Assembly: GCA_007695175.1 (NCBI GenBank)
Contig: REEH01000114.1
Location: 1-64,000 of the forward strand
Length of the DNA: 64,000 bases
Reading direction: 5' to 3'
Source: Spirochaetaceae bacterium
GTDB lineage: Bacteria > Spirochaetota > Spirochaetia > DSM-27196 > Alkalispirochaetaceae
The notes beneath the pieces were generated by a model that saw only the letters and a list, made by a program, of their open reading frames with translations, was not told where the DNA came from and ran no database searches. Of this stretch, positions 2,755 to 4,776 are shown one piece after another. The first letter of the stretch is position 1. Each line of letters opens with the position of its first letter. The position numbers were made by a program, and so were the translations under genes.

Positions 2755-2820
2755 CATCCATCCTCCTTTTTTCTCCTGGTCCTGTTTGCCGGCGCACCGA
2801 TTCCGCCGGGGTAAAAAAAA

Positions 2821-2848
2821 GGCCGTCCTCCCCGGGGGAGGACGGCCT
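2821..2848 (-). terminator. Attenuator terminator hairpin in the cimA leader
   Basis: On the minus strand an inverted repeat of about 11-13 bp (arms GGCCGTCCTCC and GGAGGACGGCC) is followed directly by eight T residues (plus-strand A run 2813-2820). It is a textbook intrinsic terminator, but it lies between the leader peptide stop (2872) and the cimA start (2754), so it must act as a conditional terminator for cimA. The 5' arm can instead pair with the end of the leader ORF (minus strand 2882-2874), giving an antiterminator. Confidence 0.92.
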
Positions 2849-2871
2849 GTCACCGCGACGCCTCTCAAGGC

Positions 2872-2964
2872 TCATCCTCCCGCGTGTGTCCCTGGACCGC
2901 CAATAATGATAATTATTCCCGGGAGATGCTGCAGGACTGGTGCCACGGTCGTCGTTCCGTTCAT
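2872..2964 (-). CDS. Isoleucine-rich leader peptide of the cimA attenuator (30 aa)
   Basis: A 30-codon open frame reads MNGTTTVAPVLQHLPG-IIIII-GGPGTHAGG. Codons 17-21 (2916-2902) are ATA ATT ATC ATT ATT, five isoleucines in a row, with three Thr, two Val and two Leu codons before them. The stop lies 24 nt before the terminator hairpin. Three pairings can be drawn: segment 1 (2926-2920, TCTCCCG, just before the Ile codons) with segment 2 (2882-2876, CGGGAGG); segment 2 with the 5' arm of the terminator (7-9 bp); and the terminator itself. A ribosome stalled on the Ile codons would cover segment 1 and free segment 2 for antitermination. This is the standard logic of enterobacterial ilv/his/trp attenuators. 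No Shine-Dalgarno precedes the ATG, so initiation may be leaderless. Confidence 0.88.
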   Translation of the reverse strand: MNGTTTVAPVLQHLPGIIIIIGGPGTHAGG

Positions 2965-2972
2965 CAGAAAGA

Positions 2973-3003
2973 AAAGATCGCCTGTTTTCCGCTCTCATGT
3001 CAA
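2973..3003 (-). promoter_or_regulatory. Promoter of the cimA leader transcript
   Basis: A perfect -35 TTGACA reads on the minus strand at 3003-2998. An 18-nt spacer leads to a weak -10 (GATCTT) at about 2979-2974. The predicted transcription start falls within a few bases of the leader peptide ATG (2964), consistent with a leaderless or nearly leaderless mRNA. The -10 is poor, so the exact start is uncertain. Confidence 0.5.
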
Positions 3004-3063: not shown

Positions 3064-4776
3064 ATGTCCATGAAGGAGAACACCGTATTTGAACGGCTTT
3101 CGGCGGAACTGACCAGGGAGGAGCGGGATCGGCTCCTTGAATCGGTGCGTCGGGGTATTGAGGAGCAGCTCGCACCGGTGAGTTGCCACGAGGAAACGGT
3201 ACCACCGGCGATCGAGGTCCAGATCAGAACCCTGAGCTTTCTCGCCCGGATGAGCATCTTCTTCAGGCAGCTCTTCACCGGGATGAGCCAGGAGGACCTC
3301 ATCCTTCGACGAACGCTCGCGGCTATGCGCAATCAACTGCAGAAGACTTCGGTCTCCGGCGTTGAGCCGCGCCGGCTGCTATTTACCGAACAATTTGCCC
3401 TCGCTCTGGAAAACCTGCGGCATTCGCAAATCGCTGTCGCCCCCGCTCTCGAGCTTGTCTCCTCCAGGAGGCCCGAGCTCGTTTTTCGTCTCGTTGCCGC
3501 GGAGTGCCCCGAGATCAACCGGGATCTGATTCGCCACACATCCAGTTCGTACGTGGAGGAGCAGGAAGAGCGGAATGAACGTATCCTGCGGAGCACTCTC
3601 ACGCGCTACGTGGAGGAGCGTTTACAGGAGGTATCCACGGAGAACTCTGTCCGCATCCGCCGGGCTCTCGCACAGGTAGACCAGCTGGTCGCGCTCGCAC
3701 AGTTTCCCTTTTCCTCCATGATCAGCTCCTTTTCCGGTGATCCCGAATCGGGCGGACGTTACTGCCCCTTCGATTACCTCGCCCACTCCCTGGAGCGTCT
3801 GGCCTCGGAGCTCTCCCGTCTCGCGGAGCCGCTGGAGCAAAACGCCCTGGAAACGATTGTACTTGTAGCGTGCAGGCCGGAAAACTACGGGACCCAGGAT
3901 CTTTTCCAGGCAGCTCTGGAGGCGAGTTTCGCCGTGCTCGCCGATTCGATCAGAGCCTTGAGGGACTTTTCCCGGCAGTATCCTCTTCTTTCCCTCGTGC
4001 GCGTCATACGGGAAGATCCCTGGTGGATGCCGCAGGCACCGGAGAAAACGGGTCACGACTGGCTTTCCATCTACCGGTCGACCGTGGGCGAGAGAATCAG
4101 TGCCGAGGTGCTGCGCGTCTCGCTTCACCGGCAGTTGCGGGAGAAGATTCGCGTTCTGGAAGAAATCCTGGAAGGGCCCCTTCTTCCTTTCGAAGGCCTT
4201 CCGGGAGATGTGAAGAGCTTTCACACCGCCATGATTCTCTGGAGTTTCGTTGAGTCCTTTCGACGCAACACACTCACACCCCTGCGACTGATCCTCAACG
4301 GGGCTGAGTTCTACAAGAGCTCCAACCGGGCCCAGTACAACGATGCCTTCAACGACTACGAACAGATACCGCTGGAGCTTCAGGCGCTTCGCAATCTTAT
4401 TGTGCCCGAAGGGGACTGGGGGAGAATTCTCCACGGAGGCGAGCCCTCGGGCGAGGCCTCGGGCGAGACCCCCGAGGGCCGTCCCGCCATGATAGCCAGG
4501 GTGGAGGAGGAACTCCTCCGTCTCGCTACCGGGACGAGAATTACCCTGGAGACGCTGGTTAACGTGCTGGGGGGAATCCTCTACGCGCGACCGGGAAGCT
4601 CCTACGACTCGATCGCCAATTACGGTCAGATCGGGGGACGGAGGAACGCGGAACTGATCGACGAGATCAAGCAGGTCCATGCCGGGTTGCAGCAGATAGG
4701 TACGATTATCAGCGAGGTGGACGTACTGGAAAAACGCGCTCGGGAAAACGGTATCCTTTTGCGGGCTTCCTCCTGA
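3064..4776 (+). CDS. Conserved hypothetical protein next to argS (possibly the spirochaetal DUF5312 family)
   Basis: A 570-residue, largely alpha-helical, soluble-looking protein with no signal peptide or membrane segment. I recognise no enzymatic motif. Its size and position before argS fit a conserved spirochaetal family of unknown function (I believe DUF5312, from memory only). Notable segments are a hydrophobic helix near residue 60 (LARMSIFFRQLF), an Arg/Glu-rich middle, a short repeat-like insert PSGEASGETPEG around residue 460, and a C-terminal helix ending IISEVDVLEKRARENG. ATG 3064 or ATG 3070 (MSMKEN) is the first start after TATACT; the open frame upstream to 2884 is probably noncoding because it crosses the divergent cimA promoter. 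argS follows after 34 nt and is probably cotranscribed. Confidence 0.75.
   Translation: MSMKENTVFERLSAELTREERDRLLESVRRGIEEQLAPVSCHEETVPPAIEVQIRTLSFLARMSIFFRQLFTGMSQEDLILRRTLAAMRNQLQKTSVSGVEPRRLLFTEQFALALENLRHSQIAVAPALELVSSRRPELVFRLVAAECPEINRDLIRHTSSSYVEEQEERNERILRSTLTRYVEERLQEVSTENSVRIRRALAQVDQLVALAQFPFSSMISSFSGDPESGGRYCPFDYLAHSLERLASELSRLAEPLEQNALETIVLVACRPENYGTQDLFQAALEASFAVLADSIRALRDFSRQYPLLSLVRVIREDPWWMPQAPEKTGHDWLSIYRSTVGERISAEVLRVSLHRQLREKIRVLEEILEGPLLPFEGLPGDVKSFHTAMILWSFVESFRRNTLTPLRLILNGAEFYKSSNRAQYNDAFNDYEQIPLELQALRNLIVPEGDWGRILHGGEPSGEASGETPEGRPAMIARVEEELLRLATGTRITLETLVNVLGGILYARPGSSYDSIANYGQIGGRRNAELIDEIKQVHAGLQQIGTIISEVDVLEKRARENGILLRASS

Follow-up and report, generated by a model that had tools for sequence, protein, structure and literature searches.

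A Predicted Ribosome-Mediated Isoleucine Attenuator Upstream of Citramalate Synthase in the Spirochaetia, with Leader Codons That Match the Downstream Operon

The window (the whole 64,000-nucleotide stretch of DNA analyzed here) carries on its minus strand a gene for citramalate synthase, cimA, at positions 1090–2757. Its product scores 620 bits against TIGR00977, well above the cutoff of 450 bits, which bears out the preliminary description in placing a citramalate synthase downstream of the putative attenuator. The start codon is the ATG at 2757 or 2754, following GGAGG. The TTG at 2868, listed as the start in a mechanical compilation of open reading frames, was ruled out: its frame crosses the terminator described below, and the cimA genes of relatives begin near 2757. 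Citramalate synthase opens the threonine-independent route to isoleucine, and the enzyme of Leptospira is inhibited by isoleucine. The upstream neighbor, a divergent DUF5312 gene of unassigned function (3064–4776, plus strand; PF17239, 213 bits), shares the intergenic region with the putative attenuator of cimA. On the minus strand, the DNA between these two genes holds a TTGACA, a short ORF with five isoleucine codons, and a terminator. Because the neighbor is divergent, there is no other gene whose transcript this terminator could close.

All features of the leader region lie on the minus strand. The ORF, at 2872–2964 (30 codons; MNGTTTVAPVLQHLPGIIIIIGGPGTHAGG*), was found as previously claimed, with its five consecutive Ile codons (ATA ATT ATC ATT ATT, 2902–2916), the proposed stall site. 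It ends within a GGGAGGA stretch (GGGAGGATGA at the end of the ORF), for which two pairings are possible, one with upstream sequence and one with the terminator's 5′ arm. More exactly, segment 2 (CGCGGGAGGATGAGCCT, 2868–2884), which overlaps the leader stop codon, has two candidate partners. One is segment 1 (UCUCCCG, 2920–2926), identified by reading the sequence and evaluated by the swap test below, which would bind segment 2 on ribosome-free RNA; nucleotides 2926–2920 match CGGGAGG at 2882–2876 in seven pairs, one of them G-U, as had been described for the sequence before the Ile codons. The other is segment 3 (2834–2849), the terminator 5′ arm and putative antiterminator strand. The competing 2:3 helix had been given as 7–9 bp; it is present and longer, joining approximately 2884–2868 with 2849–2834 at −26 kcal/mol. 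The intrinsic terminator (3:4, 2820–2848) is the strong one expected, with 13 pairs, a 3-nt loop and a T8 tract at 2820–2813, and a stem energy of −27.7 kcal/mol.

An exact TTGACA, assigned as the −35 element of the leader promoter, is located at 2998–3003, 39 nt before the leader ATG. The −10 region (2974–2980; CGATCT or GATCTT, spacer 17–18) is poor, GATCTT having three mismatches to TATAAT, and is the least secure element of the promoter as assigned. From these elements we infer a transcript start at approximately 2967–2964. Among 67 leaders compared, 55 have an in-frame ATG or GTG 35–39 nt after TTGAC(A), while other 7-nt offsets give between 1 and 17. None of those 55 leader starts is preceded by a Shine-Dalgarno-like sequence, compared with 28 of 31 cimA starts at the loci where cimA is the first gene. 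With a 17-nt spacer, the 35–39-nt spacing would place the 5′ end of the transcript on the start codon or just a few bases ahead of it, so that the leader mRNA is probably leaderless or nearly so. With such a start, ribosomes could initiate on the RNA the moment it appears. The combination of TTGACA spacing and a leader start without Shine-Dalgarno sequence is a point that the preliminary description had missed. Across the window's genome, TTGACA is followed by ATG at 35–39 nt 96 times, against 43 times for the reversed pattern and 48 times at 50–54 nt, a surplus suggesting that this organism makes many near-leaderless mRNAs. Two other genomes of the same order, G012 and G021, have no leader before cimA; there TTGACA stands 35–36 nt before the cimA ATG itself (L247, ~2497–2535; L248, reverse strand, ~3401–3438), which is the layout one would expect of a leaderless cimA mRNA with no leader ORF in front.

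We searched for cimA in 118 relatives and examined its upstream DNA in about 93 Spirochaetia genomes. A leader followed by a terminator was found 52 times, the window's included, in 17 families: 31 before cimA, 14 before a leuA-cimA operon (one of them counted with its cimA off the contig), and 7 before an ilvB operon containing cimA. The same arrangement is seen in the nearest relative tested (G002, 85% CimA identity), where the leader peptide reads MFEKTPATVVNRSIPVIPGFIIIIGLGTHVEG. The Ile runs and terminators that an alignment of relatives had been expected to reveal are thus kept. Conserved sequence occurs only in the coding run, in segment 2 (a GGAAGGA-like block ending at the leader stop codon) and in the terminator; outside the Ile/Leu runs, the peptide sequence differs widely between families. 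The codon run mostly ends 8–16 codons before the leader stop, the exceptions being L146, L156, and L158 (3–4 codons), and its distance to segment 2 fits the footprint that a stalled ribosome would leave. Leaders of related species are not independent of one another. Leaders were not found in the DNA upstream of the more distant cimA genes of the Spirochaetia (~42–48% identity), and the cimA loci of other phyla (L036–L111) showed no convincing Ile leader with a terminator. Two loci that satisfied the loose leader criteria, L171 and L183, were recognized as false leaders and set aside.

To gauge how readily such an arrangement arises by chance, we counted ORFs of 15–60 codons with at least four clustered Ile codons that end 15–40 nt before a strong terminator. 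Of 53 real leaders, 47 had such an ORF, whereas none turned up in 2120 dinucleotide shuffles or on the 53 reverse strands. As the real leaders had been collected under less strict versions of these requirements, their pass rate is not independent and the informative figures are those for the shuffles and reverse strands. When 13 genomes were searched with an Ile5 pattern, the only short ORF followed by a terminator was the window's own leader. Within the flanks examined, ilvB, ilvD, and hisD of the window's genome have neither a leader nor a terminator of the attenuator type. We also built a covariance model, R1, of segment 2 plus the terminator. It matches the window at 2813–2889 (72.2 bits, E = 1.9e-12, the window's own sequence being part of the underlying alignment), the sole match in that genome at E ≤ 1e-4. 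Of 47 whole genomes of the order, 34 contained an R1 match at this threshold; the matches numbered 35, and all but one fell on described leaders. Many of these sequences had trained the model, and what is telling is that hardly any match occurs elsewhere. The exception, on contig C46 of genome G015, precedes an unrelated gene. Seven weak phylum-wide matches (37–42 bits) proved to be ordinary terminators of other genes, and R1 is therefore unspecific below ~43 bits.

The folding of the competing helices, proposed earlier as a check, gave species-matched pairing for both. In the swap test, each segment 2 was paired with its own terminator arm or with those of other species: the mean 2:3 energy was −19.5 kcal/mol for the own arm versus −15.2 for the others, a difference reached in 0 of 5000 permutations, and for 37 non-redundant leaders the values were −19.4 and −15.0 (0 of 10,000). 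The 2:3 helix is also stronger than those formed by shuffles of its own segment (mean z −1.95). For the protector helix 1:2, cognate pairs averaged −21.8 kcal/mol and swapped pairs −17.7 (0 of 5000); its advantage over shuffles is modest (z −1.2) and weaker than that of 2:3. Covarying stems had likewise been anticipated. They are evident in the terminator, where 97.8% of cells are paired and seven pairs have changed on both sides (29 sequences), but column-wise covariation in the antiterminator is weak, its four two-sided pairs being reached by 282 of 500 shuffles, in part because the pairing is shifted by one base from one species to another. The swap test was used in its place.

Folding of the window's leader illustrates how the switch could operate. 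When the 5′ side is hidden, to imitate a stalled ribosome, and RNA polymerase has reached 2833, the leader is predicted to fold into the antiterminator, at −25.9 kcal/mol. When the full stretch is folded at equilibrium, the terminator state (−40.1 kcal/mol) is favored over that antiterminator stage. Since the terminator prevails once its 3′ arm exists, the predicted switch must be kinetic, as in trp attenuation, where the decision is established to be so.

The codons of the leaders follow the amino acid of the operon downstream, as attenuation predicts. Counting Ile and Leu over the last 28 codons of each leader, we obtained means of 5.9 Ile and 1.8 Leu where cimA is first, 4.9 Ile and 5.1 Leu before leuA-cimA, and 6.3 Ile and 4.9 Leu before ilvB. 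Leaders of stand-alone leuA genes (PRK03739/TIGR00970 type) have 0.5 Ile and 6.6 Leu, LLGLLLALP being typical. The difference in Leu between cimA-first leaders and those of the other cimA operons was reached in 0 of 20,000 permutations. A Leu-rich leader with a terminator is present at 15 of 16 separate-leuA loci examined, that of the window's genome included. The pattern recurs within the window's genus. Three members (G003, G005, G006) have leuA-cimA and no separate leuA; a fourth (G004), also without a separate leuA, has a mixed leader before a leuA on a contig that does not include cimA; and the window's genome and G002 have cimA alone together with a separate leuA. In the window's genome, cimA has the Ile leader and leuA a Leu leader. 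This match between codons and operon is the strongest argument that the leader codons would serve as the sensor. As the same device, with matching codons, stands before cimA, leuA-cimA, ilvB, and leuA, the specificity of the attenuator appears to have been re-tuned with operon rearrangement.

The separate leuA of the window's genome (G000:C226:32777–33041; L206, L256) has an attenuator of its own. Its leader is Leu-only (SLLSLLLALPV), its antiterminator has a 9-bp core, and TTGACA lies 35 nt before the leader ATG.

Could the short ORF instead encode a functional small hydrophobic protein, with the hairpin merely its terminator? Conservation of the ORF and the presence of a terminator after it would fit. 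However, the variability of the peptides between families outside the Ile/Leu runs, the replacement of Ile by Leu or by mixtures according to the downstream gene, the species-matched pairing of the ORF's end with the terminator arm, and the almost exclusive occurrence of R1 before branched-chain amino acid (BCAA) synthase genes make this explanation highly improbable. Codon identity that follows the operon also speaks against an incidental ORF upstream of a terminator controlled by a metabolite- or tRNA-binding riboswitch (a T-box, or a ppGpp or BCAA aptamer). T-box leaders do occur upstream of cimA in other phyla, at two Clostridia-type loci from Anaerovorax and Vallitaleaceae MAGs (L099:108–348 and L100:1–224). 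Yet an Rfam search of the window returned tRNAs only, with no known riboswitch or T-box; the window leader and six related leaders have no Rfam match, including none to the T-box family RF00230 (window, L003, L156, L146, L199, L141, L206); and no aptamer-like core is conserved. We consider a riboswitch scarcely credible here.

Another possibility is that translation of the leader acts on cimA through translational coupling, reinitiation, or exposure to Rho rather than through intrinsic termination. Reinitiation at leader genes has been proposed in many bacteria (PMC4833913). At this locus, however, ~114 nt separate the leader stop from the cimA start, with the 13-bp terminator and T8 in between, and cimA has a Shine-Dalgarno-like sequence of its own at 28 of the 31 cimA-first loci. 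We consider such a mode of action very unlikely.

The reading that we favor, with high confidence, is that the element is a classical ribosome-mediated transcription attenuator through which the supply of charged tRNA-Ile would set cimA expression. Every computable prediction of the earlier attenuation proposal held, namely conservation, species-matched helices, a covarying terminator, and operon-matched codons, and by the features tested the predicted element belongs among ribosome-mediated attenuators. The transcript would start with the leader ATG or with the last few bases preceding it, and a ribosome would load on the leaderless 5′ AUG. With ample Ile-tRNA it would reach the stop codon and cover segment 2, and the transcript would end at ~150 nt. 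With scarce Ile-tRNA it would stall on the Ile codons, covering segment 1 and leaving segment 2 free; 2:3 would then form ahead of the synthesis of segment 4, and transcription would continue into cimA. If no ribosome were present, 1:2 would form and the terminator would win. In the relatives the device would be the same and the codons would suit the operon, Leu for stand-alone leuA and Ile plus Leu for leuA-cimA and ilvB. Very probably, then, the cell senses its own amino-acid supply via the translating ribosome, and we infer that control would be exerted through charged tRNA-Ile.

We further think it likely, though with less assurance, that the Spirochaetia possess a BCAA regulon built on leaderless leader peptides, in which the promoter fixes the start without a Shine-Dalgarno sequence and the codons have been repeatedly switched among Ile, Ile plus Leu, and Leu according to the synthase gene. 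If these readings are true, no attenuator of citramalate synthase would have been described before this one, and dozens of species would together amount to a natural experiment in codon swapping.

The preliminary description knew of no ribosome-mediated attenuator for a cimA gene or in a spirochaete. The first part stands, as none for cimA was found in the literature searched, which left out Lopatovskaya et al. 2010 (Mol Biol 44:128); the second does not, since a uORF attenuator has been proposed for the Leptospira ilvB (WRC-14-1) motif (PMC8632094; PMC10272879, 2023). That motif and the window's element share a spirochaete host and a short BCAA-rich ORF before a BCAA synthesis gene. Compared by its description, the Leptospira motif precedes ilvB, has at least three consecutive Val codons, and comprises seven sequences from Leptospira only, whereas the elements reported here precede cimA, leuA-cimA, or ilvB in the class Spirochaetia, carry runs of Ile or Leu, and have species-matched helices. 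A leader ORF without a ribosome binding site, BCAA codons, and attenuation are also features of the Corynebacterium ilvBNC leader (ilvB-II motif) as summarized in PMC10272879, which cites Morbach 2000; on that account it differs in belonging to the Actinobacteria and to an ilvB gene. The attenuator RNA of Sinorhizobium meliloti trpL begins with the ATG of the leader ORF (PMC7298713) and is thus leaderless, like the transcript proposed here, but it concerns Trp and trpE in an alphaproteobacterium, and the attenuated RNA also acts in trans (PMC7298713). The T-boxes before cimA at the two Clostridia-type loci are likewise upstream RNA controls, but they bind uncharged tRNA directly and have no leader peptide.

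Leader peptides were known only in Proteobacteria and Actinobacteria before Naville and Gautheret (2010) added Firmicutes (PMC2965389). With the enterobacterial ilvBN, ilvGMEDA, leu, trp, his, and thr attenuators, the element described here shares an ORF of regulatory codons, the 1:2, 2:3, and 3:4 pairings, a terminator, and a biosynthetic gene downstream; it differs from them in its phylum, in the gene cimA, in having no Rfam match, and in a leader start apparently without a Shine-Dalgarno sequence. The comparative support is strong, and these predicted attenuators would extend ribosome-mediated attenuation to a spirochaete class and to citramalate synthase.
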